In this document: positions 24,231 to 40,989 of the stretch, piece by piece | Layout of the letters: the number at the start of each line of letters is the position of its first letter | Numbering within the stretch: position 1 is the stretch's first letter | Source of the DNA: Photorhabdus heterorhabditis | GTDB lineage: Bacteria > Pseudomonadota > Gammaproteobacteria > Enterobacterales > Enterobacteriaceae | NCBI RefSeq assembly: GCF_018448905.1 | Contig: NZ_RCWA01000008.1 | Coordinates: forward strand, 62,001-126,000 | DNA: 64,000 bases | Direction: 5' to 3' | Translations under genes and position numbers: made by a program | The notes under the pieces: model-generated | What the model saw: only the letters and a program-made list of their open reading frames with translations | Databases searched by the model: none | What the model was told of the DNA's origin: nothing

Positions 24231-24282
24231 TCTATTTCAGGCAGAATATTACCTTTTACCGCCATCCTATGCCTGAAATAGA
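24231..24282. repeat. Inverted copy of the PAAR gene 3' end
   Basis: TCTATTTCAGGC at 24231-24242 is the exact reverse complement of 24271-24282. The second arm is the last codons (S-L-F-Q-A) of the minus-strand PAAR gene. The transcript could form a 12-bp hairpin with a 28-nt loop; alternatively, this is a scrap of a second PAAR end in inverted orientation. Confidence 0.6.
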
Positions 24283-24530
24283 CTTTGCGAAGCAATCAGT
24301 GTCGCCCCACAAGAGGTTTTCATTCCCTCCAGAGCATAGGTTTGCCCATTAGAGCCGACTATGCCAGGCGTTCCTTCCACAATGGTTTGATTGCCACCAC
24401 ATTTTGGACAGGATACCGCATCCCCAACCCGAGCCGCTTTCTTCCCTGACACATCCAAATCGCCATCACCTGTCAGCACCTTGCCACCATGCGAAGTCGA
24501 ATCTCCAACCAAAATAATGGAACGTAACAT
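24267..24530 (-). CDS. PAAR-domain T6SS spike-tip protein
   Basis: 87-residue stand-alone PAAR protein that should cap the VgrG spike and help carry effectors. The N-terminus reads IILVGDSTSHGGKV, followed by CPKC (about residues 41-44) and a late Cys in KTSCGA, the pattern of metal-binding PAAR tips. It is the only T6SS gene here on the minus strand, divergent from tssF. It is a diverged relative of the three PAAR copies further right. It probably marks the left edge of the T6SS block just after mscM. Confidence 0.9.
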   Translation of the reverse strand: MLRSIILVGDSTSHGGKVLTGDGDLDVSGKKAARVGDAVSCPKCGGNQTIVEGTPGIVGSNGQTYALEGMKTSCGATLIASQSLFQA

Positions 24531-24807
24531 ATTTCACCCTCTTAACTATTAATTGAATATTAATTTCAGCTTCCGACATCTGGCTATCAAGACGTCATCA
24601 CTTCTTAATTAAGATTAAGGCAAACCTCCCCCAATCAAATTCATCAAAATAAACTACACAATCAAGTTACCGGAACACCTATAAAATTTACATCACCAAC
24701 TGTTTTAAACCACAATTTTCATACATTAAAACAATCAACCTTGATATTCATCAGATTGAAATATAAATTTACATTAATTGTTGATCACAAAAGAGACAAG
24801 CATAAGT

Positions 24808-26541: not shown

Positions 26542-26555
26542 CTTAAGGAAACATC

Positions 26556-28532
26556 ATGAAAACCGGACTCTGCTTTTCCTGCACTATCGGCAACCTGGCA
26601 CCTAAAACGTTTGCGGTCGTTGATTTTACGTTAGATGAGGCGCTTTCATCGTTATTTACCTTATCCCTGACATTGGCGGCCCCGCGTTCAGATATTGATA
26701 CGGATACACTTCTGCTCCAAACCGCACGGTTCACCGTCACTCGTAACGACATTCTACAACGTGAAGTGAAAGGGGTAATTGAAAGTGCAGTTGTTGGGAC
26801 CACCAACCGGCATCAAACCCAGTATCATCTGACCATCAGACCAGAAATGTGGCTTCTGACCCTCGACCAAGACAGCCGTATCTATCACCAGACCAGCATT
26901 CCCGACATCTTGCAGCAAATCCTGCAACAAAAAAAACTCCGGGCTAATATGCATTTAAATCACGTACATTCAGTGCGGGAATACGTCACCATGAAAAGGG
27001 AATCCTCCTATGATTTCTTTACCCGCCTCGCGGCTGAAGAGGGGATTTTCTTCTGGTTCGCCGATGACGGGCTCTATGTGAGTGATAGCCACTTAAATAT
27101 GAGAGCGCCTGATACGTTGATGTATAACCCGGATGTCACCAGTGCAATAGAAGAAAATGTTATCTACAAATGGTTACTTGGCTCCCACATGCGCCCCGAA
27201 TCTATCGCCCAGAAAGACCGGAATTATCACAACCCCAATTATGCTTTACAGCATAACGCAACGGATTTTGCGGCAGAGAGCAACACACCCTTTCGTATTT
27301 TCGAAAGTTACGGGCGTTTTCTGAAAGATAAAGAGGGCATGCCCTTTACTCAATACAGGCTGGAAGCTTTGCGGGCTGACAGCAAATCAGGGCAAGCGGC
27401 CAGTAATTGTATTCGATTAATGCCGGGCAGAATCTTCACATTAACTCACCACCCTATTGACACCATGAATGACCGCTGGCAAGTCATCTCCTCTCAACAT
27501 AGCGGGCATGTCCCTGCTGTTTTAGGTGATGGCGGAACCGGCACTACGCTACATTCACAGACCCAATTTATTCCAGGCCGTAACGACTGGCGTCCCCTCT
27601 ACCGTTATAAGCCCCTGGCTGATGGAGATGAAGTTGCCACCGTTGTCGGCCCCGACACAGAAGAAATCTATGTCAATAAAGATGGCGCGGTTCGTGTTCA
27701 CTTCCACTGGAACCGGTATGATGCCCCCAACGATCAAGCGTCTTGCTGGGTTCGGGTGGCACAAGGTTGGAATGGTAACGGATTTGGCTTTCTGGCGACA
27801 CCGCGAGTCGGTCAGGAAGTGATTATTTCCTACCTCAACGGGGATATTGACCGTCCGATTATTACCGGATGCACGTACAACGGCCTTAACCGCCCACCGC
27901 TGAATTTACCGGCGGAAAAAACCCGTACTACGTTTAGAACCAAAACACATAAAGGTCATGGTTTTAACGAATTGCGTTTTGAGGACGAGAAAGGAAGCGA
28001 AGAAGTGTTTATTCATGCTCAGCAGGATATGAATACGCAGGTTCTGAATGATGAAACCCGTAATATCGGGAATAACCAGACACATCATATCAAACATGAT
28101 GCCCATTTACGCATTGATAATGAGTACCGCGTACAGGCGGGCAATGATATTTCCCTATCTACGGGGCAAAAACTCCATATTAAGGCAGATGACGCCCTGT
28201 TAACTCAAAGCGGCAATGAAATTCACCTGAGTTCCGGCGCTAAAGTCGTGATTGATGCCAGCAGTGAACTGACCCTACAGGCCGCTGGGCACTTCCTTAA
28301 AATCGATGCGGGCGGTATTACCAGCAGTGCGGGCATTAACTTTGGCAGTGGATCACCCGGCAGCGGCTCAGGTTGGGGTGGCAAACTGCCGGATAGGCTA
28401 GATAAGCTGAAACAAGCGAGTGTCGTACAGGCAGAAAAAGCCTTGACGGCACCGTTGAAAGAAATTTGTCTGACCTGTCTGATAAAAGCAGAGCTGAATG
28501 GCACGGCAATGGTTATCAGGGGGCAATCATGA
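26556..28532 (+). CDS. vgrG: VgrG (TssI) T6SS spike protein
   Basis: 658-residue trimeric spike. The gp44/gp27-like N-terminal half includes the ESSYDFFTRLAAEEGIFFWF segment (near 150-170). The gp5-like OB domain has the signature GAVRVHFHWNRYDAP and then PRVGQEVIISYLNGDIDRPI (about 375-440). A repetitive beta-needle region then runs to about residue 600 and a Gly/Ser-rich linker leads to a short helical tail. No toxin domain is fused, so cargo is carried by separate effectors. Its stop overlaps the DUF4123 start (ATGA), tying spike and chaperone synthesis together. Confidence 0.96.
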   Translation: MKTGLCFSCTIGNLAPKTFAVVDFTLDEALSSLFTLSLTLAAPRSDIDTDTLLLQTARFTVTRNDILQREVKGVIESAVVGTTNRHQTQYHLTIRPEMWLLTLDQDSRIYHQTSIPDILQQILQQKKLRANMHLNHVHSVREYVTMKRESSYDFFTRLAAEEGIFFWFADDGLYVSDSHLNMRAPDTLMYNPDVTSAIEENVIYKWLLGSHMRPESIAQKDRNYHNPNYALQHNATDFAAESNTPFRIFESYGRFLKDKEGMPFTQYRLEALRADSKSGQAASNCIRLMPGRIFTLTHHPIDTMNDRWQVISSQHSGHVPAVLGDGGTGTTLHSQTQFIPGRNDWRPLYRYKPLADGDEVATVVGPDTEEIYVNKDGAVRVHFHWNRYDAPNDQASCWVRVAQGWNGNGFGFLATPRVGQEVIISYLNGDIDRPIITGCTYNGLNRPPLNLPAEKTRTTFRTKTHKGHGFNELRFEDEKGSEEVFIHAQQDMNTQVLNDETRNIGNNQTHHIKHDAHLRIDNEYRVQAGNDISLSTGQKLHIKADDALLTQSGNEIHLSSGAKVVIDASSELTLQAAGHFLKIDAGGITSSAGINFGSGSPGSGSGWGGKLPDRLDKLKQASVVQAEKALTAPLKEICLTCLIKAELNGTAMVIRGQS

Positions 28533-29020
28533 CACCGGAATTACAGAAAAAATGGAGTGAATACAGAGAAATACATCCCGAAATGAAATGGTATGCCTTA
28601 GTCAGTGGCCTACAATATGAACGTCATTTTGCTGAGGAGATTAAGTATATCGCCGACACGAATAATCCCCTGTTCCGGCAATACCCGGATGCCAAAATTG
28701 CATTCGCGGGACCATGGTTGTTTGATATGGCTTATGCGAAATCATGGGAAGAAAAGTTATCTACGCTGGAAAAGGTTGCACCTTCGGTGTCCTGGCTACA
28801 CACCACGCTGTCTTTGGACAAACTGACTCGTCACCTTGAAAACTACCTGAATGTTGAGCTGGAAATGGGAGAAACAGCATTGCTGCGTTTTTACGATCCC
28901 CGCATTTTGCATCAAATTCGGGATATTTTCAGCCCAGAGCAATTGGCGGCATTCACTGACGGTATTCATGAGTGGGTGTATTCATTTGATAATAATGATT
29001 ATTTTGTAAAAGGAGCCTGA
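28529..29020 (+). CDS. DUF4123 T6SS effector chaperone (TecT/Tap-1-like)
   Basis: 163-residue DUF4123 protein. These adaptors load a specific effector onto VgrG/PAAR and are not themselves secreted. The conserved core LLRFYDPRIL is present near residue 110, with the GPWLF motif earlier. I start at ATG 28529, overlapping the vgrG stop; the open frame upstream lies inside vgrG. Gene order (VgrG, DUF4123, small protein, Tox-REase-5, Imm52, PAAR) matches the TecT/co-TecT/TseT/TsiT system of P. aeruginosa. It is the only DUF4123 gene in the window and so may serve all three nuclease effectors. Confidence 0.9.
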   Translation: MTPELQKKWSEYREIHPEMKWYALVSGLQYERHFAEEIKYIADTNNPLFRQYPDAKIAFAGPWLFDMAYAKSWEEKLSTLEKVAPSVSWLHTTLSLDKLTRHLENYLNVELEMGETALLRFYDPRILHQIRDIFSPEQLAAFTDGIHEWVYSFDNNDYFVKGA

Positions 29021-29368: not shown

Positions 29369-30001
29369 ATGCCATTACCACTTCTTGCGCCAGCGGCTCC
29401 TGCTCTTTTAGCTGCCGCTGAATGGACTCTTGCTACCTGTGCAGCAGGATTAGTCGCCATTGGTGTGATGGAAAGCACCAAAGATAAAGAAGGTGAACAA
29501 GACAAGGCAAAAGCGGGTACACAAACAATTACGTCATCCCGTACCGAATGTGAAAAATGTCCGGCAATTGGGAAAGTGATGATGGTTTGGGAAAAGACCA
29601 CATCGTATTCAGAAATAACCATTGCTTATCAAACAAAAATTGCCGGGACGATATACAACCCTGAATTAAACCTAATTGAAACCTGGTTATGCATGGATAC
29701 AAGTTTTGATGGTTGGAAACCTGCAAAGTGCTTATTTCTTGAGGCTAAGGCGAATTACGATCAATTTTTTAAAAATGGGGAACCTAATGGTTTTTATCGT
29801 AAGGTAAAGTTAGGTAAGAAAAAACTGTCTGGACATGATAGCATGTTGAAGCAAGCCAGAAAACAAAACGAAGTATGTATCGCATTAAATAACATTCCAA
29901 AATCTCACTGGCATTTTCTACAACCTGTATCTTATTCATATTTTACAGAGGCTTTTGCTCCATATCTCAATATTAAAACTTTTAATACTATGATGTCTTA
30001 A
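29369..30001 (+). CDS. T6SS nuclease effector 1, Tox-REase-5 domain
   Basis: 210-residue predicted DNase effector of the TseT type. Residues 1-35 are hydrophobic and Ala/Leu-rich, possibly for PAAR or chaperone binding. A CxxC (61-64) follows. The Tox-REase-5 core carries a PD-(D/E)xK site: Asp114 in FDGWKP, then Glu125-x-Lys127 in LEAKANYDQFF. Residues after ~136 (GHDSMLKQ, SHWHFLQPVSY) differ from copy 2 but resemble copy 3. It is followed 31 bp later by its presumed immunity gene. Family assignment rests on these motifs and the gene order. Confidence 0.88.
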   Translation: MPLPLLAPAAPALLAAAEWTLATCAAGLVAIGVMESTKDKEGEQDKAKAGTQTITSSRTECEKCPAIGKVMMVWEKTTSYSEITIAYQTKIAGTIYNPELNLIETWLCMDTSFDGWKPAKCLFLEAKANYDQFFKNGEPNGFYRKVKLGKKKLSGHDSMLKQARKQNEVCIALNNIPKSHWHFLQPVSYSYFTEAFAPYLNIKTFNTMMS

Positions 30002-30032
30002 TAACCAGAATAACTTATAGGAGAATTGAAAT

Positions 30033-30788
30033 ATGTTCATTATACACCCAAGAATAAAATTATTTTATGATCTTAGAGAAGCCATCACACCGGAATTAGC
30101 ATTAGCCGATACGTATCAGTTAATGAATCATATCAATAACCTCAGTAACAATTCAAGTGGTTGGCATTTACCTGGATATAGTGAAGAAGAAATGAGAGAA
30201 AATAACGTATTTAATGAAAATGGCATTACTGAGTATGCTTTAAAAGAATTCAGGGGGATTTATGAGGATGACGGAAGATCTATTATAGTGTCACTATTTG
30301 ATAACCCTATAATTGATAATTATGAAAGTGTAAAATTAGAAAATAATATTACATATATTGGTCAGGATGATATTCATTCCAATCCTAATAGATTGGGGAA
30401 AACTAATATATCTATTGACCTTGCACTTGAAAAAGAAAAATTCAACCTTAAAAACTTTATCGGCTTTATTAAACATTTGGTTTCTCATAGATATTCTCCA
30501 TTTATTATGACAGATACTAGAGGTTATAGATTAAATCAAAAACAAATTTTCCCAGACCGCCTAAGTGCTGGCTGGATGCTCTATTTACCAATAGAAATAG
30601 ATCCAACTTTAGTTCCAATGGCGGAAGAAATAATACCTGTTTCTGATAAAAATGACAAAAAAGGCTCATTGATTATCACGACAAAAGATATTTTTGATAT
30701 TGAAAACCAGGAGCATATCAATAAAGCCAATGATATTGAAATCTGCTTGCGGGATCTACAAATACTACCATTGATGACAGAGTTATAA
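30033..30788 (+). CDS. Imm52-like immunity protein 1
   Basis: 251-residue cytoplasmic protein. The signature PDRLSAGWMLYLP (about residues 172-186) and an N-terminal WHLPG fit the Imm52 family, which I recall as the usual partner of Tox-REase-5 toxins (TsiT type). It should bind and block effector 1. The last ~75 residues (from IEIDP to MTEL) are nearly identical in all three immunity copies, while residues 1-170 vary. The ribosome site AGGAGA precedes the ATG. A PAAR gene starts 2 bp after its stop. Confidence 0.82.
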   Translation: MFIIHPRIKLFYDLREAITPELALADTYQLMNHINNLSNNSSGWHLPGYSEEEMRENNVFNENGITEYALKEFRGIYEDDGRSIIVSLFDNPIIDNYESVKLENNITYIGQDDIHSNPNRLGKTNISIDLALEKEKFNLKNFIGFIKHLVSHRYSPFIMTDTRGYRLNQKQIFPDRLSAGWMLYLPIEIDPTLVPMAEEIIPVSDKNDKKGSLIITTKDIFDIENQEHINKANDIEICLRDLQILPLMTEL

Positions 30789-30790
30789 AT

Positions 30791-31054
30791 ATGACAAATC
30801 GAGCCGTAATCCGATTAAACGACCTCACCGATCATGGTGGTCAAGTCATTACTGCCATTGATAATTACGTGTATCAAGGCGTGCCTGTTGCCGCTAAAGG
30901 TGATTTAGTCAGCTGCCCTAAATGCAAAGGGGTTTTCCCTATTGTAGAAGGGAGCAATGACTTAAAGCATCAGGGAAAACCTGTCGCATTAGAAGGTATG
31001 CATACGGCATGCGGCGCAAAACTGATTGTCAGTCAGAAAGATTTTCTCGCTTAA
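30791..31054 (+). CDS. PAAR tip protein, cassette 1
   Basis: 87-residue PAAR protein (VIRLNDLTDHGGQVITA start). CPKC (about residues 39-42) and a late Cys in HTACGA are the likely metal ligands. Nearly identical to the cassette 3 copy and shared in architecture with the minus-strand PAAR at the block edge. It is placed after the immunity gene rather than before the chaperone. Confidence 0.92.
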   Translation: MTNRAVIRLNDLTDHGGQVITAIDNYVYQGVPVAAKGDLVSCPKCKGVFPIVEGSNDLKHQGKPVALEGMHTACGAKLIVSQKDFLA

Positions 31055-31215
31055 TGAGACGACAATCATTTTGGCCTATTAGGACAACACTGACGCACTA
31101 CGCTTGTCTTCTCCATTGTACCGGGCTAATACATGAATCCGGTAAAACGGAGAGCCGAGAAAAACACCGTGATTATTTACAGGTCATGGATAACTTATTG
31201 AACAGGAGAAATTAA
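31055..31215 (+). pseudogene. Cassette spacer with co-chaperone 3' relic, copy 1
   Basis: The first ~90 bp (31055-31145) have no recognisable gene but recur at 32754. From about 31146 the DNA matches the end of the 114-aa co-chaperone-like gene, ending in the codons for RDYLQVMDNLLNRRN and a TAA one base before effector 2. The relic still supplies the AGGAG ribosome site for effector 2. Confidence 0.8.
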
Positions 31216-31216
31216 T

Positions 31217-31825
31217 ATGCCATTACCACTCCTTGCGCCAACGGCTCCTGCTCTTTTAGCTGCCGCTGAATGGACTCTTGCTACCTGTGCAGCAGGATTA
31301 GTCGCCATTGGTGTGATGGAAAGCACCAAAGATAAAGAAGGTGAACAAGACAAGGCAAAAGCGGACACACAAACAATTACATCATCCCGTACTGAGTGTG
31401 AAAAATGTCCGGCTATCGGGAAAGTGATGATGGTTTGGGAAAAAACCACATCGTATTCAGAAATAACTCTTGCTTATCAAACAAAAATTGCCGGGACGAT
31501 ATACAACCCTGAATTAAACCTAATTGAAACCTGGTTATGCATGGACACAAATTTCGATGGTTGGAAACCTGCACAATGCTTATTTCTTGAGGCCAAAGCC
31601 AAATATGATCAATTTTTCAAAGATGGAATGCCTATAAGTTGGTGGAAAATAAGTAAAAGCGGGGATAGATCCATGACGACTCAAGTAGAAAAACAGCAAG
31701 AAGTATGCACTACATTAAATGGAATCCCAAATTCTCACTGGCATTTTATGCAACCTATAAGCTATGCCTATTATTTAGAGAAATTTTCTATTTATCCCAA
31801 TATTAAAGTATTTCACACTATTTAA
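31217..31825 (+). CDS. T6SS nuclease effector 2, Tox-REase-5 domain
   Basis: 202 residues. The first ~135 are almost identical to effectors 1 and 3, including the catalytic Asp114, Glu125 and Lys127 (FDGWKPAQCLFLEAKAKYD). The C-terminal ~65 residues are strongly diverged (SWWKISKSGDRSM, EKQQEVC) with only SHWHFMQPISY in common. The switch from identity to divergence falls just past the catalytic motif. It is paired with the equally diverged immunity protein 2, 23 bp downstream, which supports specific toxin-immunity matching. Confidence 0.88.
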   Translation: MPLPLLAPTAPALLAAAEWTLATCAAGLVAIGVMESTKDKEGEQDKAKADTQTITSSRTECEKCPAIGKVMMVWEKTTSYSEITLAYQTKIAGTIYNPELNLIETWLCMDTNFDGWKPAQCLFLEAKAKYDQFFKDGMPISWWKISKSGDRSMTTQVEKQQEVCTTLNGIPNSHWHFMQPISYAYYLEKFSIYPNIKVFHTI

Positions 31826-31848
31826 CATCTAAGTAAAGGTGAAAAAAA

Positions 31849-32571
31849 ATGACTACATTATCATTAAACATGAAATTATATACAGATTGGAAAGAACCAT
31901 TAACTCCAACAATAGTTCTTACCGATTTATATAAAATCACACAACAAGTAGATATATTTTTTAGACTCCATAAAACTTGGTATTTACCAGGAGATACTCG
32001 TCAAGAATCTTTACAACATATTGCTTTTGATCAGCAAGGAGCAACAAAAGAAGCAATAAAAGAGTTTGAAGAAGATTATACAGAAGAAAATCCTATAGTT
32101 ATTAAAGGGATTTGGGATGGTGAAGATGATGACCATTCATGTTCAATTTGTTATATGAATTATCGTCGAGATCGGTTAGGACAAACCCAAATAGATTTTC
32201 ATATATCTATTGAAGAAAATGAATTTCAGCTATCACGATTAATCAACTTTATTAATTTTCTGATTTCTACTCATAATGCACCTTACATTATGGTAGAAAA
32301 CAATACATATAGAATAAAAAGAAAACACGTTTTCCCAGATCGTTTAAGTGCTGGCTGGATGCTCTATTTACCAATAGAAATAGACCCGGCTTTAGTTCTA
32401 ATGGCAGAAGAAATAATATCTATTTCTGATAAAAATGACAAAAAAGGTTCATTGATTATTACCACAAAAGATATCTTTGATATTGAAAACCAGAAGCATA
32501 TCAATAAAGCCAATGATATTGAAATCTGCTTGCGGGATTTACAAATACTACCATTGATGACAGAGTTATAA
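31849..32571 (+). CDS. Imm52-like immunity protein 2
   Basis: 240 residues, the most diverged of the three copies over residues 1-165 (WYLPG instead of WHLPG; acidic DGEDDDHSC segment), then switching to near identity from FPDRLSAGWMLYLP to the C-terminus. It presumably neutralises effector 2. The sharp boundary between variable and constant halves, also seen at DNA level, suggests recombination between copies. Confidence 0.82.
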   Translation: MTTLSLNMKLYTDWKEPLTPTIVLTDLYKITQQVDIFFRLHKTWYLPGDTRQESLQHIAFDQQGATKEAIKEFEEDYTEENPIVIKGIWDGEDDDHSCSICYMNYRRDRLGQTQIDFHISIEENEFQLSRLINFINFLISTHNAPYIMVENNTYRIKRKHVFPDRLSAGWMLYLPIEIDPALVLMAEEIISISDKNDKKGSLIITTKDIFDIENQKHINKANDIEICLRDLQILPLMTEL

Positions 32572-32573
32572 AT

Positions 32574-32753
32574 ATGACAAATCGAGCCGTAATCCGATTA
32601 AACGACCTCACTGATCATGGTGATCAAGTCATTACTGCCATTGATAATTACGTGTATCTAGGCGTGCCTGCTGCCGCTAAAGGTGAATTAGAAGGTATGC
32701 ATACGGCATGCAGAGCAAAACTGATTGTCAGTCAGAAAGATTTTCTCGCTTAA
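32574..32753 (+). pseudogene. Internally deleted PAAR, cassette 2
   Basis: Same start and end as the neighbouring PAAR copies, but 84 bp (28 codons) are missing in frame, leaving 59 residues. The deletion removes the CPKC motif and the following strand; a TTAG occurs at both deletion edges in the intact copy. Additional changes include the late HTACRA in place of HTACGA. A folded, metal-bound tip is unlikely, so I treat it as a decayed gene, although the frame remains open. Confidence 0.8.
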
Positions 32754-32914
32754 TGAGACGACAATCATTTTGGCCTATTAGGACAACACTGACGCACTAC
32801 GCTTGTCTTCTCCATTGTACCGGGCTAATACATTAATCCGGTAAAACGGAGAGCCGAGAAAAACACCGTGATTATTTACAGGTCATGGATAACTTGTTGA
32901 ACAGGAGAAATTAA
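32754..32914 (+). pseudogene. Cassette spacer with co-chaperone 3' relic, copy 2
   Basis: Near-exact duplicate of 31055-31215: the unassigned ~90-bp spacer and then the last codons of the co-chaperone-like gene (RDYLQVMDNLLNRRN) with TAA one base before effector 3. Shows that cassette 3 was copied from a cassette that already carried the relic. Confidence 0.8.
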
Positions 32915-32915
32915 T

Positions 32916-33542
32916 ATGCCATTACCACTCCTTGCGCCAGCGGCTCCTGCTCTTTTAGCTGCCGCTGAATGGACACTGGCTGCTTGTGCAGCCGGATTAG
33001 CCGCCGTTGGTGTGATGGAAAGTACCAAAGGTAAAGAAGATGAACAAGACAAGGCAAAAGCGGACACACAAACAATTACATCATCCCGTACTGAGTGTGA
33101 AAAATGTCCGGCTATTGGGAAAGTGATGATAGTTTGGGAAAAAACCACATCGTATTCAGAAATAACTCTTGCTTATCAAACAAAAATTGCCGGGACGATA
33201 TACAACCCTGAATTAAACCTAATTGAAACCTGGTTATGCATGGATACAAGTTTTGATGGTTGGAAACCTGCACAATGCTTATTTCTTGAGGCTAAAGCTA
33301 AGTATGACCAATTTTTTAAAAATGGAGAGCCTAAAAATTTCTATAAAGATGTAAAATTAAAAGGCGATATGTCTGGGCATGACAGTATGATTTATCAGGC
33401 TAAAAAACAAAATTTAGTATGTACAACTTTAAACAATGTACCGAAATCATATTGGCATTTTTTGCAACCTGTATCTTATGCATATTTCTCTAGAGCATTT
33501 ACTAAGTTTAATAACATTAAAATATTTAATACTGTAATTTGA
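32916..33542 (+). CDS. T6SS nuclease effector 3, Tox-REase-5 domain
   Basis: 208 residues with the shared N-terminal ~135 and catalytic Asp114/Glu125/Lys127. Its C-terminal part (SGHDSM, PKSYWHFLQPVSYAYF) is closer to effector 1 than to effector 2 but clearly different from both. The N-terminal hydrophobic stretch carries a few substitutions (LAACAAGLAAVG). It is followed after 47 bp by immunity 3. Confidence 0.88.
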   Translation: MPLPLLAPAAPALLAAAEWTLAACAAGLAAVGVMESTKGKEDEQDKAKADTQTITSSRTECEKCPAIGKVMIVWEKTTSYSEITLAYQTKIAGTIYNPELNLIETWLCMDTSFDGWKPAQCLFLEAKAKYDQFFKNGEPKNFYKDVKLKGDMSGHDSMIYQAKKQNLVCTTLNNVPKSYWHFLQPVSYAYFSRAFTKFNNIKIFNTVI

Positions 33543-33589
33543 TAGTTGTTTAATTATATTAATTTTGCTTTGCGTAAAAAGGTAAAGAT

Positions 33590-34324
33590 ATGACAACAAT
33601 ATACCCAAGAATAGAACTATTTCACGATCTAAACGAGAGCATAACACCTAAGGTGGCATTGAGTGATTTATATCCGGTGGTGCAGCAAGTAAATAAATTA
33701 TCAAATAAGCAAAGTGGTTGGCATTTACCTGAGAATTCTTTGGAGGAGAGATTGCTGTACCGAGCATTTGATGAAAATGGACCTACTGAGTACGCATTAA
33801 AACATTTTGAAGCAACTTTTGATGAAAAGTTTAAACTTATTGTTAAATCTTTATCAGATGGAAATAATGAAGACAATAATAGTATTTTATATACAAGCGA
33901 AGATGAAATTCATAATAATCCTGTCCGGTTAGGGAAAACCAATATATCAATTAACATTAGTCTTAAAAAAGAAGATGTTAACTTTGAGAAGTTCATAGTA
34001 TTCATTAAAAATTTAATATCTAATTGTAAATCTCCATTTGTTTTAGTAGATACAAGAGGTTACTCGTTAAAACAAAAACAAGTTTTTCCAGATAGAGCTT
34101 ATGTCGGTTGGATGCTCTATTTACCAATTGAAATAGATCCGACTTTAGTTCCAATGGCAGAAGAAATAATATCTATTTCTGATAAAAATGACAAAAAAGG
34201 CTCATTGATTATCACGACAAAAGATATTTTTGATATTGAAAACCAGGAGCATATCAATAAAGCCAATGATATTGAAATCTGCTTGCGGGATCTACAAATA
34301 CTACCATTGATGACAGAGTTATAA
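33590..34324 (+). CDS. Imm52-like immunity protein 3
   Basis: 244 residues; N-terminal half like immunity 1 (YPRIELFHDL, SGWHLP) but with many substitutions. The GWMLYLP motif and the last 75 residues are the common type. Its resemblance to immunity 1 mirrors the resemblance of effector 3 to effector 1, as expected if each immunity co-evolves with the adjacent toxin. Confidence 0.82.
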   Translation: MTTIYPRIELFHDLNESITPKVALSDLYPVVQQVNKLSNKQSGWHLPENSLEERLLYRAFDENGPTEYALKHFEATFDEKFKLIVKSLSDGNNEDNNSILYTSEDEIHNNPVRLGKTNISINISLKKEDVNFEKFIVFIKNLISNCKSPFVLVDTRGYSLKQKQVFPDRAYVGWMLYLPIEIDPTLVPMAEEIISISDKNDKKGSLIITTKDIFDIENQEHINKANDIEICLRDLQILPLMTEL

Positions 34325-34326
34325 AT

Positions 34327-34590
34327 ATGACAAACAGAGCCGTAATCCGATTAAACGACCTCACCGATCATGGTGGTCAAGTCATTACTGCCATTGATAA
34401 TTACGTGTATCAAGGCGTACCTGTTGCCGCGAAAGGTGATTTAGTAAACTGCCCTAAGTGCAAAGGAGTTTTCCCTATTGTGGAAGGGAGCAATGACTTA
34501 AAGCATCAGGGAAAACCTGTCGCATTAGAAGGTATGCATACAGCATGTGGTGCAAAACTGATTGCCAGCCAGAAGGATTTTCTCGCTTAA
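34327..34590 (+). CDS. PAAR tip protein, cassette 3
   Basis: 87-residue PAAR protein, intact CPKC and late Cys, almost identical to the cassette 1 copy. It is not followed by the cassette spacer; instead a VasX-like effector begins 18 bp later, so it may serve either the nuclease or the pore-forming effector. Confidence 0.92.
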   Translation: MTNRAVIRLNDLTDHGGQVITAIDNYVYQGVPVAAKGDLVNCPKCKGVFPIVEGSNDLKHQGKPVALEGMHTACGAKLIASQKDFLA

Positions 34591-34608
34591 TTACAGGAAA
34601 GCTATGAA

Positions 34609-36516
34609 ATGGATGCCGACATGATTATCAAGAACATCAATGAATACCTGCACCTGAATGAACAATCGCGGATTGTTATTCTGCACGATCCGGTAGGCCG
34701 TCAACGGGATATCGCGGAAGCTTACTCCATCCTGAATCTGTGGCAACAGAGCTATCACGCTTCCAATATCTACCCATTAACCATTGGCTTCTATGTCGAA
34801 AAGCTCAAAGCGACGAAAAACCCGGAGCTGAAAAAGAAAATAGATGACAGTATCCATCAGGACCGCTGGAACAACGACTGGCCGAAACTGAAAGAAACCA
34901 CCGAAGACTTTGAAGCGCGTCAGGCAAAGTTGATGAAACTGTTTGAAGCTTTCGCGGATAACCCGGACCTCAGTTATCAGGTCGGCGGGCTGAAAAATTA
35001 CTTTCATTACTTCTTTTCATTGCAAGATAAAAAAGAGACGCTGGAAGAAGAGGACGCGCTGGAGTTTCAGTTTTTCAGTGAAATCCTCTCTGGTCTGCTT
35101 GGCAATCTGCAATCCTCCCTGCCCGGCCAACAGGTTTTGGCAAAGCTTGCCGCCAAAGCATCAGACAGTGACGGAGACGGTAACTTCTGGCGCACCATTA
35201 CCACCGGGGTTATCGCCGTGCTGAATAACGACAAAGTAAAATCACCGATGCTTAAGAGCCAGTTTATTCGCGGAGTTGATAATATTTTGCAGGGTATGGG
35301 GACCTTTCTGGCCACCGTCTGCGCTAACCCCGATCAGGCGATTTCTCAGGGAGCAAATTATCTCCACCAGCTTCCCCAGAAAGCCATTGACCAGATAACC
35401 CAACAATTTGTCCCCGCCCTGTTATCTACGTTGGGTGTAGTGATTGAATCGGATGGCCGGGTGGCACTCAGTGAACAAAGCTATCAGGAAGTGCTCAAGC
35501 GACTGGAATCGAAAGCAAATCGTCACCTGCCAGATCCAGCGGTGCGGACACAGGCTATTGGGGAACGGATTATTAACTGGAGTAAACGCCTGGAATCACT
35601 TGGCAATAAACCGGTGATGACCCTGCCCGCGGTTAAAACCAGTGCAGACTCGCCGGTTCAGCTTTTTACCTTAGACGGAGCCGGTAAACCATCCATTGGC
35701 TTACTGTTTGACTCTTCACTGACTGGTGTCAGCCTATTTTTGAATGCGTTTACCCTATCGGACGTGCTCAAACAGACAGAATATGCCCGCAACAACCCGT
35801 TACAACCCGGCCCGACCTATATGAATCTGCTACGCTTTAGTACCGCGGTGATTGGTATGAGTGCTGATTTGGCTTCTATCAGCTCGACGCTGGCGAGCAA
35901 AGTGAACTCCCCGATAGTAAAAGCGCTGATGAATGGGATAAAAGTGCCCGCTATCAATGCGGCTATGGTCAGCCAGTTCTCCCGTGTTGCTGGTAGCATA
36001 GCGGGTTATTTAGGGGCGCTGGTTTCCTTCTATGATGCGAGTAACGCCTTTAAAGTGGGTAATAGTGTGGAAGGTTATAGCCAAGTAGCGATAGGGACAG
36101 GTACGATTATCCTAACAACAGTAGGATTAATATTCTTTGCCGCTGGCTCTGTCATGACAGCAGGCTTGCTAGCATGGCTGGCTGCGGGAATCAGTTTGCT
36201 TGTCGGTGGCAGTATTGGACAGGCCACCAGTGCTTGGTCAGATCTCGAAAAAGTGCTGAATAACTGTTTTTGGGGAGCTGGGAAAAAGTATAATTTTTGG
36301 GGAGGAAAAGGAAGACCTGACATATCTAGTCAATTCGAAATAGTCAGAGAAATGAATAATGACACACAAAATCATTTTGTTATCGAAAACCAGGAGTTTT
36401 TAAATCTGTTTATTCAGCCACAACTGAAAATACATCAGGGTTTGGTGTCACGACCTATTGTTTTACCCTGCCTGCTTTTCAGATGGGTCTCTCAGATATT
36501 CGCGGGATCTTTGTGA
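34609..36516 (+). CDS. VasX/BTH_I2691-like pore-forming T6SS effector, N-terminal part
   Basis: 635 residues before the stop. The N-terminus has the VILHDPVGRQRDIAEAY segment that I associate with VasX_N/BTH_I2691 effectors. A long helical middle follows, then C-terminal hydrophobic segments (about 355-380, 395-425, 495-540) suited to membrane insertion, as in colicin-like VasX. The zero frame ends at 36516, but family-like sequence continues in the -1 frame to 36836 and ends by overlapping the immunity gene, so the true product is probably about 742 residues and this gene is frameshifted or recoded. The preceding PAAR and following membrane immunity genes support the call. Confidence 0.8.
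   Translation: MDADMIIKNINEYLHLNEQSRIVILHDPVGRQRDIAEAYSILNLWQQSYHASNIYPLTIGFYVEKLKATKNPELKKKIDDSIHQDRWNNDWPKLKETTEDFEARQAKLMKLFEAFADNPDLSYQVGGLKNYFHYFFSLQDKKETLEEEDALEFQFFSEILSGLLGNLQSSLPGQQVLAKLAAKASDSDGDGNFWRTITTGVIAVLNNDKVKSPMLKSQFIRGVDNILQGMGTFLATVCANPDQAISQGANYLHQLPQKAIDQITQQFVPALLSTLGVVIESDGRVALSEQSYQEVLKRLESKANRHLPDPAVRTQAIGERIINWSKRLESLGNKPVMTLPAVKTSADSPVQLFTLDGAGKPSIGLLFDSSLTGVSLFLNAFTLSDVLKQTEYARNNPLQPGPTYMNLLRFSTAVIGMSADLASISSTLASKVNSPIVKALMNGIKVPAINAAMVSQFSRVAGSIAGYLGALVSFYDASNAFKVGNSVEGYSQVAIGTGTIILTTVGLIFFAAGSVMTAGLLAWLAAGISLLVGGSIGQATSAWSDLEKVLNNCFWGAGKKYNFWGGKGRPDISSQFEIVREMNNDTQNHFVIENQEFLNLFIQPQLKIHQGLVSRPIVLPCLLFRWVSQIFAGSL
36399..36405 (+). other. TTTAAAT heptamer at the -1 frameshift of the VasX-like gene
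   Basis: In the effector's reading frame the bases read T TTA AAT, the X XXY YYZ layout of -1 slippery sites. Slipping here joins ...QEFLN to SVYSATTE and on through FTLPAFQMGLSD to the stop at 36836. The two frames overlap from about 36364 to 36516, so other junctions (for example near 36435) are possible. Whether this is programmed slippage, a mutation or an assembly error cannot be told from sequence alone. Confidence 0.45.
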
Positions 36517-36836
36517 CTCCATTCAGAACTCCCCACTACTGGGAAGGAAAAATAGATTATGTTGAAATTAACCACCGCAAATATATTCCTGATACCTTCC
36601 GTAGTACCAAATTCAGGGAAGCTAAGGAGCAGGCCAAACTTACCTTGAATGGCGATACGGCAACGCTGGAAGTAGTCATCGCAGAAACAATGGGCGTTTA
36701 TCCCCGCAGTAGCGAACTGTACTGGTATTATGAGCAATCAGAAAATGTCATTGCCCCTATGCGTTATATCTTGGGAGAAAAACCCACAGCAGAAAATACC
36801 ATTAAAGGCAGTTTTGACGGAGAGCGTATATTATGA
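36405..36836 (+). CDS. C-terminal part of the VasX-like effector (-1 frame)
   Basis: The -1 frame is open from about 36366. Read from the heptamer it gives about 143 residues including CFTLPAFQ, RGIFVTPFRTPHYW and a folded soluble tail ending GSFDGERIL. A start at ATG 36483 would give 117 residues, but no ribosome site is obvious, so independent translation is unlikely. Its stop overlaps the first immunity ATG (ATGA), which shows that this frame is the natural end of the effector gene. Confidence 0.7.
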   Translation, partial: SVYSATTENTSGFGVTTYCFTLPAFQMGLSDIRGIFVTPFRTPHYWEGKIDYVEINHRKYIPDTFRSTKFREAKEQAKLTLNGDTATLEVVIAETMGVYPRSSELYWYYEQSENVIAPMRYILGEKPTAENTIKGSFDGERIL

Positions 36837-37801
36837 AGCAACGACTCAAAAATCTACTCAAAAAATGGTTTTCCACTATTCATCCACTGCCAGCCAAACG
36901 GCTGGCACGCTGGGAAAAAGAACTTCTGACAGCGCCACCGGATATTAAGGATGTAGAAACTATTAAACATGTAGAAATACTGGATTATCTTGATAATAAG
37001 GAATGTCATATCCGTAATCCACAACGCCGTTTTAGGAGTATTAATCTAATCCCAGTAACATTAGGGATTATTAGTAGCCTTATTCTAAATATTAACGGAT
37101 TTATCGAAGATCGTAAAAATGATGAAAAAGGGATTCATAGTTGGGTGGTATTAGTAAAGAAAAAGTACGGCGAAGAATTTTATTTACGCGATGATCTACC
37201 CGATTATATGGAAAGTGCCCGCTATATCGGCAACGATAAAGAGATCTCCCTGAGGAAATACCTGCACTATCGCTATAATTTTTATGAGTATAGCAATGAT
37301 TTTTTGATAACTGATATGATATTTTTACTGCTTTACCTACTGATTATTCCACCTTTTGTTTATTGTGTATTTTTCTGGCAGAGACAGGCACCATTAATTA
37401 TCGACCGTGAGCGACAGATTTTTTACACCTGGTATAAAGGCAAAGCCTATACCGCCCGTTATCCACAATTAGGCATGCTGGAAAAAACTAATATTCTGTA
37501 TCTCAAAGTCTACGGACTAGACGAAAATAATAACCTTATCGAGCGAGTATTTATCCCTAACGTCAGCAGCTATACTTTTGCCTTCTTAAGCAGTGGCAAT
37601 GATAAAGCGCTGGCAGTCGCCTTTATGGTGAAGTTTTTATTAAACGGTAAAGAAGCAGTCAGTAAAGTAGATTATAAACGTCGTGGACCGCTTATCTGGT
37701 GGAGTAAAGATAAAAGACCCGCCGATTTAGACGAACAGATTCCGTTGATTTTGGCCGAACTGGATCGCTTAGGTCCCCCTGATGAAGATCTTTCCGAATG
37801 A
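36833..37801 (+). CDS. Membrane immunity protein, array copy 1
   Basis: 322 residues. Basic N-terminus (LKNLLKKWF, PAKRLARWEKE), one hydrophobic segment (about 71-90), a ~100-residue probably periplasmic loop (YGEEFYLRDDLPDYM), a second hydrophobic segment (about 163-185), and a soluble C-terminal domain ending GPPDEDLSE. A two-span inner-membrane protein directly after a pore-forming effector fits an immunity role like TsiV2 for VasX. I do not recognise a named family. It starts on the effector stop (ATGA). This copy has the most distinct N-terminus (MKQR, FSTIH). Confidence 0.75.
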   Translation: MKQRLKNLLKKWFSTIHPLPAKRLARWEKELLTAPPDIKDVETIKHVEILDYLDNKECHIRNPQRRFRSINLIPVTLGIISSLILNINGFIEDRKNDEKGIHSWVVLVKKKYGEEFYLRDDLPDYMESARYIGNDKEISLRKYLHYRYNFYEYSNDFLITDMIFLLLYLLIIPPFVYCVFFWQRQAPLIIDRERQIFYTWYKGKAYTARYPQLGMLEKTNILYLKVYGLDENNNLIERVFIPNVSSYTFAFLSSGNDKALAVAFMVKFLLNGKEAVSKVDYKRRGPLIWWSKDKRPADLDEQIPLILAELDRLGPPDEDLSE

Positions 37802-38766
37802 AAGTGAAATTAAAAAATTTACTTAAAAAATGGTTTCCTACTGTTCATCCACTGCCAGCCAAACGGCTGGCACGCTGGGAAAAAGAACTTCTAGCCGTAC
37901 CACCAGATATTAAGAATGAAGAAACTATTAAACATGTGGAAATACTGGATCTCCTTAATGATAAGGAGTGCTGGGTTAGAAGTCCCCAGCGCCGTTTTAG
38001 AAGTATTACCCTGATCCCGGTAACATTAGGATTAATTACTAGTCTAATATTAACAGTGAATGATTTTATGAAAGAACGAAAGAGTAATGAATCAGAAATT
38101 TATCATTGGGTTGATATAGCTAAAAAGGAGTATGGTAAAAAATTTTATTTACGCGATGACCTTCCTGATTATTTGAATGGTATGAACTATATTGGTGATG
38201 ATAAAGATCTCTCTCTGAAGAAATACCTGTATTATCGATATAACTATTATCTATACAGCGACTACCTTTTAAAAGTCGATATAGGTTTCCTACTACTCTA
38301 TCTGCTGATTATTCCCCCTTTTGTATGGGCTATATTTTTTTTACGCCGTCAGGCGCCACTAATTATCGATCGTGAACGACAGATTTTCTACACCTGGTAT
38401 AAAGGTAAAGCCTATGCTGCCCGTTATCCACAAGTGGGTATGGCAGAAAAAACTAATATTCTGTTCCTCAAAGTCTACGGTCTGGACGAAAAAAATCAAC
38501 TTATCGGACGTGGTTTTATCCCTAACGTCAGCAGTTATACTTTTGCTCTTTTAAGCAATGGCAATGATAAAGCGCTGGCAGTCGCATTTATGGTGAAGTT
38601 TTTATTAAACGGTAAAGAAGCAGTCAGTAAAGTAGATTATAAACGTCGTGGACCGCTTATCTGGTGGAGTAAAGATAAAAGACCCGCCGATTTAGAGGAT
38701 CAAATTCCATTGATTTTGGCCGAACTGGATCGCTTAGGTCCCCCTGATGAAGATCTTTCCGAATGA
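37798..38766 (+). CDS. Membrane immunity protein, array copy 2
   Basis: 322 residues, same layout as copy 1. The first ~45 and last ~130 residues are nearly constant; the loop between the membrane spans is the most distinct (HWVDIAKKEYGKK, YLNGMNYIGDDKDLS). It carries the KECWVRSPQRR and LEDQIP variants that it shares with copy 4. The start overlaps the previous stop (ATGA). Confidence 0.75.
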   Translation: MKVKLKNLLKKWFPTVHPLPAKRLARWEKELLAVPPDIKNEETIKHVEILDLLNDKECWVRSPQRRFRSITLIPVTLGLITSLILTVNDFMKERKSNESEIYHWVDIAKKEYGKKFYLRDDLPDYLNGMNYIGDDKDLSLKKYLYYRYNYYLYSDYLLKVDIGFLLLYLLIIPPFVWAIFFLRRQAPLIIDRERQIFYTWYKGKAYAARYPQVGMAEKTNILFLKVYGLDEKNQLIGRGFIPNVSSYTFALLSNGNDKALAVAFMVKFLLNGKEAVSKVDYKRRGPLIWWSKDKRPADLEDQIPLILAELDRLGPPDEDLSE

Positions 38767-39731
38767 AAGTGAAATTAAAAAATTTACTTAAAAAATGGTT
38801 TCCCACTGTTCATCCACTGCCAGCCAAACGGCTGGCGCGTTGGGAAAAAGAAATTCTAGCCGTACCACCGGATATTAAGGATGCAGAAACCATTAAGCAT
38901 GTGGAAATATTGGACTACCTTGATAATAAAGAATGTCATATTCGCAATACCCAACGCCGCGCCCGGAGTATCGCTTTAATCCCGGTTACACTGGGAATTA
39001 TTAGCAGTTTGGCGTTAAACGTTAACGATTTTATAGAGTCACGAAAAAATAATGAAGTATGGATACATGGTTGGGTAAATTTGGCGAAAAAAAAATACGG
39101 GGATAAATTCTACCTACGTAATGATTTACCAGACTATATGGAAAATGCCCGCTATATTGGTAACGATAAAGAAATTTCGCTAAGAAAATATTTATATTAT
39201 CGTTATACTTTTTACCCAAGTAGCACTAAACTTCTCATTATTGATATAAGCTTCCTACTGCTCTATCTGATAATTATTCCACCTTTTGTATGGGCTATAC
39301 TTTTTTTACGCCGTCAGGCACCATTAATTATCGATCGTGAACGACAGATTTTTTACACCTGGTATAAAGGTAAAGCCTATGCTGCCCGTTATCCACAATT
39401 AGGCATGGGGGAAAAAACTAATATTTTTTATCTCAAAGTCTATGGACTGGATGAAAATAATCAGCTTATCGGGCGTGGTTTTATCCCCAATGTCAGTAGT
39501 TATTCCTTTGCTTTCTTAAGCAGTGGCAATGATAAAGGGCTGGCAGTTGCCTTTATGGTGAAGTTTTTATTAAATGGCAAAGAGGCGGTCAGTAAAGTAG
39601 ATTATAAACGTCGTGGACCGCTTATCTGGTGGAGTAAAGATAAAAGACCCGCCGATTTAGACGAACAGATTCCATTGATTTTGGCCGAACTGGATCGCTT
39701 AGGTCCCCCTGATGAAGATCTTTCCGAATGA
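38763..39731 (+). CDS. Membrane immunity protein, array copy 3
   Basis: 322 residues, same layout. It shares KECHIRN and LDEQIP with copy 1, and has its own variants around the second span (FYPSSTKLLIIDISF). Starts on the copy 2 stop (ATGA), so the whole array should be translated as one coupled message. Confidence 0.75.
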   Translation: MKVKLKNLLKKWFPTVHPLPAKRLARWEKEILAVPPDIKDAETIKHVEILDYLDNKECHIRNTQRRARSIALIPVTLGIISSLALNVNDFIESRKNNEVWIHGWVNLAKKKYGDKFYLRNDLPDYMENARYIGNDKEISLRKYLYYRYTFYPSSTKLLIIDISFLLLYLIIIPPFVWAILFLRRQAPLIIDRERQIFYTWYKGKAYAARYPQLGMGEKTNIFYLKVYGLDENNQLIGRGFIPNVSSYSFAFLSSGNDKGLAVAFMVKFLLNGKEAVSKVDYKRRGPLIWWSKDKRPADLDEQIPLILAELDRLGPPDEDLSE

Positions 39732-40696
39732 AAGTGAAATTAAAAAATCTACTCAAAAAATGGTTTCCCACTGTTCATCCACTGCCAGCCAAACGGCTGG
39801 CACGCTGGGAAAAAGAAATTCTAGCCGTACCACCAGATATTAAGGATGCAGAAACCATTAAGCACGTGGAAATACTGGATCGCCTTAATGATAAGGAGTG
39901 CTGGGTTAGAAGTCCCCAGCGCCGTTTTAGAAGCATTACCCTGATCCCAGTAACATTAGGGATTATTAGTAGCCTTATTCTCAATATTAACGGATTTATC
40001 GAAGACCGTAAAAATGATGAGAAAGCTATCCATCGGTGGGTCAATCTAGTAAAAGAGGAATATGGCGACGAATTTTATCTGAGAAATGACTTACCAGACT
40101 ATATGGAAAATGCTCGTTATATTGGCAATGATAAAGAGATCTCCCTGAGAAAATATCTGCATTACCGCTATAATTATTATCTATACAGCGACTATTTCTT
40201 TAAAGTTGACATGGGGTTCCTGTTGCTCTATCTGCTAATCATTCCACCATTCATCTGGGGTATTTTTTTTTCACGCCGTCAGGCACCATTAATTATCAAT
40301 CGTGAACGACAGATTTTTTACACCTGGTATAAAGGTAAAGCCTATGTCGCCCGTTATCCACAAGTGGGTATGGCAGAAAAAACTAATATTCTGTATCTCA
40401 AAGTCTACGGACTAGACGAAAATAATAACCTTATCGAGCGAGTATTTATCCCTAACGTCAGCAGCTATACTTTTGCTTTCTTGAGCAGTGGCAATGATAA
40501 AGCGCTGGCAGTCGCCTTTATGGTGAAGTTTTTATTAAATGGCAAAGAGGCGGTCAGTAAAGTAGATTATAAACGTCGTGGACCGCTTATCTGGTGGAGT
40601 AAAGATAAAAGACCCGCCGATTTAGAGGATCAAATTCCATTGATTTTGGCCGAACTGGATCGCTTAGGTCCCCCTGATGAAGATCTTTCCGAATGA
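39728..40696 (+). CDS. Membrane immunity protein, array copy 4 (mosaic)
   Basis: 322 residues. It is a patchwork: KECWVRSPQRR and YNYYLYSDY as in copy 2, ILNINGFIEDRKNDEK and NNLIERVFIPN as in copy 1, ENARYIGNDKEIS as in copy 3, LEDQIP as in copy 2. Such alternation points to gene conversion between copies. One substitution, IINRERQ for IIDRERQ, is unique. The start overlaps the copy 3 stop. Confidence 0.75.
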   Translation: MKVKLKNLLKKWFPTVHPLPAKRLARWEKEILAVPPDIKDAETIKHVEILDRLNDKECWVRSPQRRFRSITLIPVTLGIISSLILNINGFIEDRKNDEKAIHRWVNLVKEEYGDEFYLRNDLPDYMENARYIGNDKEISLRKYLHYRYNYYLYSDYFFKVDMGFLLLYLLIIPPFIWGIFFSRRQAPLIINRERQIFYTWYKGKAYVARYPQVGMAEKTNILYLKVYGLDENNNLIERVFIPNVSSYTFAFLSSGNDKALAVAFMVKFLLNGKEAVSKVDYKRRGPLIWWSKDKRPADLEDQIPLILAELDRLGPPDEDLSE

Positions 40697-40989
40697 AAGT
40701 GAAATTAAAAAATTTACTTAAAAAATGGTTTCCTACTGTTCATCCACTGCCAGCCAAACGGCTGGCACGCTGGGAAAAAGAGCTTTTGGCAGCACCACCG
40801 GATATTAAGGATGTAGAAACCATGAGGCCGTTTATCAAACTGGAACTAATAGAAACCGATTTGCTGGAAGCCCCTGAACCACGTGATATTCGATCGTTCG
40901 TAACAGAGTTAACACAGGAAGGAAAGATTATTACGGGTTTTCCCTGCGCTACAGTTGTCAGCCTCAGGCTGAAAAACTGGTTGCTATAA
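40693..40989 (+). pseudogene. Truncated fifth copy of the immunity gene with foreign tail
   Basis: The first ~43 codons are the array type (to DIKDVET); from about 40823 the sequence is unrelated and encodes 54 further residues (RPFIKLELIETDLLEAPE...) of no recognised family before the stop. Both membrane spans are lost, so it cannot act as the others do. It marks where the array was broken, perhaps by recombination with an unknown neighbour gene. Confidence 0.75.

Follow-up and report, generated by a model that had tools for sequence, protein, structure and literature searches.

In Vibrio cholerae, the type VI secretion system (T6SS) effector VasX damages the inner membrane solely when it is presented on the periplasmic face; protection is afforded by TsiV2, the product of a single immunity gene behind vasX that is fed by a promoter inside vasX itself (PMC3857813). 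Strings of non-identical immunity paralogues are known from the type VII secretion system (T7SS), with twelve esaG genes in one strain and up to 15 tipC genes, where recombination through conserved blocks alters both copy number and sequence; little evidence of recombination was seen in tsaI, the membrane family of the same study (Garrett et al. 2022, PMC9484751). Orphan immunity arrays of the V. cholerae T6SS, which may mix immunity types, have been explained by effector displacement, with duplication being argued against (Kirchberger et al. 2017, PMC5361080), and homogeneous polyimmunity loci, comprised of tandem paralogues of one superfamily, have been proposed to give cover against non-kin toxins (Zhang et al. 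2012, PMC3482391). The locus described below is a tandem array of immunity-like genes, four intact and a fifth truncated, that lies directly behind the remnant of a VasX-like effector gene in a 64,000-nucleotide (nt) stretch of Photorhabdus heterorhabditis DNA (contig NZ_RCWA01000008.1, positions 62,001 to 126,000; hereafter the window).

With a probability of roughly 0.65, the array represents a homogeneous polyimmunity locus against a single family of VasX-like T6SS effectors that probably form pores, and recombination in register reshuffles the specificity cassettes of the locus. The genes are tandem paralogues of a single superfamily, the defining feature of such loci, and their place behind effectors with a VasX_N domain in relatives, together with the sharing of cassettes between loci, suggests that they encode immunity proteins. 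As with VasX and TsiV2, an effector is followed by an immunity gene and the intact relatives of the effector carry VasX_N, whereas only one immunity gene lies behind vasX (PMC3857813). The array resembles esaG and tipC in that conserved blocks flank a variable region and a recombination signal is present; it differs from these other families of the Gram-positive T7SS in encoding a predicted membrane protein beside T6SS genes, with no T7SS toxin partner among its neighbours in the window, and in having ATGA-joined units of one length and a shared block that includes the toxin tip (PMC9484751). Like the V. cholerae arrays, it places effector-less immunity genes behind a T6SS effector, and such genes resemble effector-linked ones elsewhere (4 of 10 first copies here), but it consists of one family in exact register with ends homogenised within species. 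The effector 3′ remnants that lie between V. cholerae immunity genes were not found in the window or in the other arrays searched, P. khanii excepted (PMC5361080).

By Pfam, the family is different from the polyimmunity families SUKH, Imm6, Imm11, Imm28, Imm33, Imm36 and Imm41 (PMC3482391). Taken together, PMC3482391, PMC5361080 and PMC9484751 already cover the principle; the family is unrecognised and the array unusually regular. Among the matches listed in a literature search, nothing concerned Photorhabdus T6SS immunity arrays, and there was no immunity family of this kind in Photorhabdus, no strict 965-nt ladder of up to 15 genes and no block joining a toxin tip to an immunity front. The locus joins two models that those studies treat apart, effector displacement in the T6SS and paralogue recombination in the T7SS.

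Anatomy and distribution of the array

The window contains four intact open reading frames (ORFs) of 322 residues and the start of a fifth copy (Table 1). The first-pass annotation had described a 965-bp tandem array with ATGA overlaps, and this description was borne out, each of the four steps between the five starts being exactly 965 nt. The four intact copies are 81–86% identical in DNA and 78–87% in protein. When all pairs were compared in 60-nt intervals, nt 781 to the end were 90–100% alike and nt 1–90 were 78–98% alike, with values down to 57% in the middle. The closest partner switches from one part of the gene to another: nt 121–240 are 92–97% alike in copies 2 and 4, whereas copies 1 and 4 are 92–93% alike over nt 211–300 and 97–100% alike over nt 661–780. 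The longest exact stretch common to two copies is 181 nt. The variable stretch comprises the end of the predicted first membrane helix, the loop and the start of the second helix, and is found at +965, +1930 and +2895 in copies 2–4 relative to copy 1. No second array was found in the genome of the window beyond this locus. A promoter scan gave 13 sites compared with 21.3 ± 5.3 in shuffled sequences, so no promoter is claimed; that the effector remnant contains a promoter, by analogy with vasX, is only an idea.

Table 1. Positions of the array, the effector remnant and the associated upstream genes in the window
Feature	Position	Strand	ORF or length	Remarks
T6SS context	24778..29020	+		TssF (PF05947), VgrG-like spike (PF05954, PF22178, PF04717), DUF4123 adaptor (PF13503)
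Three tandem modules	29369..34590	+		Each Tox-REase-5 toxin / Imm52-like protein / PAAR; directly before effector remnant
VasX-like T6SS effector remnant, body	34594..36444	+	34609-36516 (635 residues)	N-terminal VasX_N part missing
Effector remnant, 3′ end	36438..36833	+	36483-36836 (117 residues)	Other frame
Immunity-like gene copy 1	36833..37801	+	322 residues	
Variable stretch of copy 1	37085..37327	+	Codons 85–165	Basis: peaks of entropy and of nonsynonymous difference (pN), and model helices 64–112 and 154–181
Immunity-like gene copy 2	37798..38766	+	322 residues	ATGA overlap with copy 1
Immunity-like gene copy 3	38763..39731	+	322 residues	ATGA overlap with copy 2
Immunity-like gene copy 4	39728..40696	+	322 residues	ATGA overlap with copy 3
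Truncated fifth copy	40693..40989	+	98 residues	Repeat-like for ~134 nt (to ~40826), unrelated sequence beyond

Relatives were compared in mostly draft assemblies, with one genome per species. The Photorhabdus loci hold 53 intact copies of 322 residues in 12 array pieces, all 53 proteins being distinct, and 36 of 36 steps between neighbouring intact copies measure 965 nt. As this set had itself been filtered for 322 residues, the copies were recounted without the length filter from ORFs covering at least 270 family residues, which gave 54 near-full-length open copies, 53 of them with 322 residues (one listed as 327 from an upstream start) and the other with 321. The statistics on 53 copies given below exclude truncated, frame-broken and contig-cut copies as well as the 321-residue copy. 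Downstream of the window array lie two genes with Pfam matches to HAD and S33-type hydrolases, which we take to be yigL-like and pldB-like, and at the same yigL/pldB site P. noenieputensis carries an unbroken 965-nt ladder of 15 copies. Another array of P. noenieputensis adjoins a queuosine-synthesis gene, and the arrays of P. caribbeanensis have 9 and 4 intact copies.

A scan of the genus gave a match in 9 of 13 genomes (the window's own included) and none in the other 4; three of the nine (G001, G003 and G011) hold remnants only. These remnant-only loci (L034:7203-7463, L047:10001-10198 and L035), in which codons 1–41, 1–66 and 4–50 plus 300–322 are kept, are collapsed arrays, and two of the three also retain a piece of the end of the effector. 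All 12 matching loci in a scan of named genomes belong to Photorhabdus. Another genus of the same taxonomic family has homologues at 37–38% identity in 18 of 30 genomes, the full-length ones listed being 316–341 residues long by first start codon and neighbouring matches being unevenly spaced at about 0.94–1.16 kb. At one locus there the order is VgrG, DUF4123, VasX_N effector and homologue, with the contig ending ~100 nt past the homologue. Wider samples gave matches in 3 of 198 genomes of the family and 10 of 394 of the order, the window's own being counted in both. One distant genome of the order (L082, G392:C22:262000-277000) has five weak matches to the protein family in a span of about 5 kb, which may form an irregular cluster of independent origin. 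Among the genomes searched, the strict 965-nt ladder is confined to Photorhabdus.

Five copies, in four arrays, are frame-broken, each with a single-nucleotide change in length that makes the step 964 or 966 nt. Close to the break, L026:10614, L026:13508, L027:9124 and L029:7777 (+) have 8–9 consecutive A near nt 282 or 324, and L046:4915 has 8 consecutive T near nt 538. These runs prompted the idea of a slippage switch, but A8 or A9 is present in the same stretch in 10 of the 53 intact copies and the idea was not adopted. Decay, slippage and sequencing error are indistinguishable in the frame-broken copies, with decay and sequencing error equally possible. The last copies of two array pieces (L038:1485-2450, with 321 residues, and L024) deviate in their final codons, as if the edge of the array escaped homogenisation.

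Recombination signal and apparent age of the gene segments

Incompatibility between neighbouring informative sites was 0.539, compared with 0.639 ± 0.007 after permutation, and none of 1000 permutations was as low. The outer ends and the middle of the gene differ in how they are related across species. The nearest neighbour came from the same species for 23.2 of 53 copies in nt 781–966 (permutation mean 11.2; 1 of 2000 permutations as high) and for 21.8 of 53 in nt 1–120 (4 of 2000 as high), whereas only 7.5 of 53 did so in nt 250–500 (1749 of 2000 as high). Species labels changed 24 times on the tree of the 3′ end against 30.5 ± 1.6 in shuffles (0 of 300 as few) and 26 times on that of the 5′ end, nt 1–120 (5 of 300 as few); on the tree of the middle they changed 34 times against 30.7 ± 1.7 in shuffles (299 of 300 at or below). 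Middle types cross species borders, whereas the outer ends follow species, and the middle parts appear to have been swapped both between copies and between species.

Synonymous difference per site over the 53 copies is 0.34 in codons 1–45, 0.63 in codons 46–180 and 0.36 in codons 181–322 (limit 0.75). Codons 46–180, which take in the predicted membrane helix, the loop and the second helix, are close to synonymous saturation, and the outer ends are more alike. Amino-acid change is highest at codons 91–110 with a second rise at 141–170, and the ratio of nonsynonymous to synonymous substitution rates (dN/dS) is 0.03–0.21 in every interval along the gene. The middles have the look of old sequence whose function has been maintained, and the outer ends look younger, as expected from homogenisation. 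The first-pass annotation had proposed a recent amplification with later diversification of the middle; near-saturated but open middles in combination with more alike ends disfavour this order of events. The loop segments form 19 combinations among the 53 copies, with 11 distinct combinations in the 15-copy array and 4 in the four copies of the window, and are linked to one another (mutual information 0.60–1.34 compared with 0.18–0.59 permuted), codons 52–71 being linked weakly or not at all.

Effector tips, first copies and competing explanations

The effector was compared with the first immunity copy at 10 loci, the thr2 and kha2 effectors and the effector-less array pieces being left out. 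Mean identity of the effectors in 40-residue blocks is 61–84% over residues 761–1000, compared with 82–100% in the preceding blocks. A DNA block of ~1.26 kb, which starts ~720 nt upstream of the first immunity gene and extends to ~nt 540 within it, is 95–100% alike in P. namnaonensis and in the second arrays of P. noenieputensis and P. caribbeanensis. Outside this block, the sequence upstream is 77–97% alike, the rest of the first gene 82–100% and the middle of the second gene 58–83%. The sites occupied are near yigL in P. namnaonensis and by the queuosine-synthesis gene in P. noenieputensis; the neighbours in P. caribbeanensis have the same lengths as those at the P. noenieputensis queuosine site, the comparison being by length only. 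As the block is shared by three species, it appears that the effector tip has travelled together with the front of the first immunity gene as a single unit.

In four locus pairs the tips agree at 96% or more, and in all four the first copies agree at 98% or more over codons 85–165; three of these pairs are one cassette, leaving two independent cases. Over these codons, the remaining copies in the partner arrays reach only 0.48–0.79. Over the 10 loci, tip distance was correlated with first-copy distance (r 0.64, p 0.001 for codons 45–180; r 0.47, p 0.018 for codons 85–165), with effector residues 840–905 giving the best fit to the loop. The corresponding value was −0.08 ± 0.13 for randomly drawn non-first copies (maximum 0.35 of 300 draws) and 0.25 (p 0.12) for last copies. 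Four of the 10 effector-linked first copies recur at non-first positions in other species with a loop identity of 0.93–1.00 (akh54_1 of P. akhurstii/carA_8 of P. caribbeanensis, 1.00; akh07_1/noenA_2, 0.99; noenA_1/carA_8, 0.98; kha_1/carA_4, 0.93).

Several results weigh against the polyimmunity reading. The correlation over 10 loci is carried by the shared cassettes and is weak or absent among 7 de-duplicated loci, where the whole tip gives r 0.14 for codons 45–180 and −0.07 for codons 81–165, and effector residues 840–905 give r 0.38 (p 0.05). The conserved part of the immunity-like protein (181–322) also correlates with the tip, with r 0.46 (p 0.025) over the 10 loci, and with effector residues 780–840 it reaches r 0.87 (p 0.018) over the 7; linkage inside transferred DNA could consequently explain the association without cognate selection. 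Six of the 10 first copies, the window's own included, have no non-first match of at least 0.90 elsewhere, the best loop matches being 0.86 for tas_1, 0.83 for the window first copy and 0.75–0.80 for carA_1, nam_1, noenB_1 and carB_1. No positive selection was seen in averaged dN/dS over the 53 copies, an estimate that saturation makes rough, and nt 600–780 show no species clustering (13.2 of 53; 494 of 2000 permutations as high), so that homogenisation is confined to the outer ends. The five frame-broken copies indicate that not all copies are being kept, and searches of Pfam, NCBIfam and the PDB, the last by sequence and by fold, assigned neither a family nor a fold to the immunity-like protein. 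The sharing of cassettes is real, and the link to the effector is weak once each shared cassette is counted once. The earlier suggestion that extra copies protect against variant effectors is partly supported, being consistent with the four recurrences and the tip pairs and gaining little from the de-duplicated loci.

Under the polyimmunity reading, each copy would sit in the inner membrane, its conserved ends enclosing an interchangeable segment, part membrane and part periplasmic, whose loop and helices would meet the membrane tip of an incoming effector. The first copy, adjacent to the effector, would be the partner of that effector's tip, and the remaining copies would be orphans covering the tips of other Photorhabdus. 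Crossovers between like stretches could add copies, remove them or give them new middles without damage, with register and frame being kept because the units share one length and ATGA joins. The window would then be a late state, in which the effector has decayed, four immunity copies are still open and the Tox-REase-5 modules occupy the place of the effector's N-terminal part, having presumably displaced its front. A more tentative extension is that the array might store immunity specificities in a heritable and combinatorial form, where any crossover, including one with DNA of other species, yields a working gene, and where the tip/front cassettes of rivals are taken up with the constant 3′ part as a landing arm. 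If the copies differ in specificity, one operon would record the weapons of competitors and new immunity would arise by recombination. The 15-copy ladder and the linked effector types in sister species predict which copy should block which tip, making the role of orphan genes directly testable.

The alternative of dosage or relic, by which tandem duplicates are kept for more protein or persist as decaying leftovers without specificities of their own, draws on the broken effector of the window, the three genomes of the genus that retain only gene remnants, the five frame-broken copies elsewhere and the weak correlation of effector and first copy after de-duplication. It appears unlikely, as the middles are near synonymous saturation yet have open frames and low dN/dS, and as the arrays hold many distinct loop combinations (11 in the 15-copy array and 4 in 4 in the window). 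Since distinct middles are maintained, dosage alone is insufficient.

It is improbable that the array grew as entire effector-immunity modules displaced one another in turn, the route put forward for V. cholerae, and not by recombination between tandem copies. Displacement is what the row in P. khanii (L027 / L041) resembles, with an effector remnant, an immunity copy, a second effector, a broken copy and an intact copy in succession, and the effector remnant of the window stands behind three toxin modules. P. khanii is, however, the sole exception to the lack of effector matches between copies in the window and the other arrays searched, and the 965-nt steps (36 of 36), the absent intervening effectors and the ends homogenised within species led us to reject sequential displacement alone for the ladders. 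The two processes probably operate together, with displacement at the front and in-register exchange within the array. The second effector of P. khanii also has a differing internal stretch, and the row as a whole may capture module displacement in progress.

A short-read assembly artefact over the repeats is very improbable, for although exact shared stretches of up to 181 nt in the window, which make a join error possible, and of 209 nt in P. noenieputensis, as well as P. akhurstii array pieces cut by contig ends, could be taken to favour it, in the 15-copy array the longest stretch shared between copies has a median of 64 nt, the units of the window differ by 14–19% and the same ladder recurs in several assemblies.

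Predicted protein, effector remnant and neighbouring genes

The structure model of copy 1 made with 40 diverse homologues had a mean predicted local distance difference test score (pLDDT) of 81.2, compared with 44.8 for a first model from a less diverse alignment. It is composed of a long helix (64–112), two short helices (124–132 and 140–150), a further helix (154–181) and a strand-rich domain to about residue 240, and no solved fold matches it at E 0.001. Hydropathy maxima are located at codons 71–90 and 161–180, and because basic residues flank this helix pair, both termini are predicted to be cytoplasmic and the variable loop periplasmic. A match to DUF3993, given by 1 of the 40 homologues at 0.0017, was treated as chance.

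The first-pass annotation had placed a VasX-like effector ahead of four full paralogues. The four open 322-residue copies are present as described; the effector gene is broken over two frames and lacks VasX_N. The body of the remnant aligns in one frame to residues 289–905 of an intact 1034-residue relative, and the 3′ end aligns to residues 904–1034 of the same relative in a different frame, at 73%. In a Pfam scan, VasX_N (PF20249) was absent from the window effector ORF and present in three of the three intact effector relatives scanned. The ORF matches the NCBIfam BTH_I2691 family (NF041559) over profile positions 346–844 of 858 (E 2.8e-16) at 59 bits, which is under the curated threshold of 150, and three relatives, at 61–108 bits, likewise lie under it. 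The gene of the window is classed only as the remnant of a VasX-type effector.

Similarity to the effector begins at 34594, immediately past the end of the last PAAR gene (34590). The array accordingly lies behind a decayed effector, which was perhaps cut by the arriving toxin modules. A separate PAAR gene is located on the − strand just before TssF (24267-24530). Matches to Imm52 in the modules of the window are under the cut-off (23.7 and 14.8 of 25 bits) or unreported in the Pfam scan. Six Tox-REase-5 modules were compared, three from the window and three in tandem from one relative (L034:1727-7039). Their toxins are 88–95% alike in the first 125 columns and 58–67% alike after, and their Imm52-like proteins are 40–66% alike in the first 175 columns and 90–99% alike after. 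A like cassette design, with a variable toxin end and a variable immunity front between constant arms, recurs in the Tox-REase-5/Imm52-like modules, a second toxin family of the same island.

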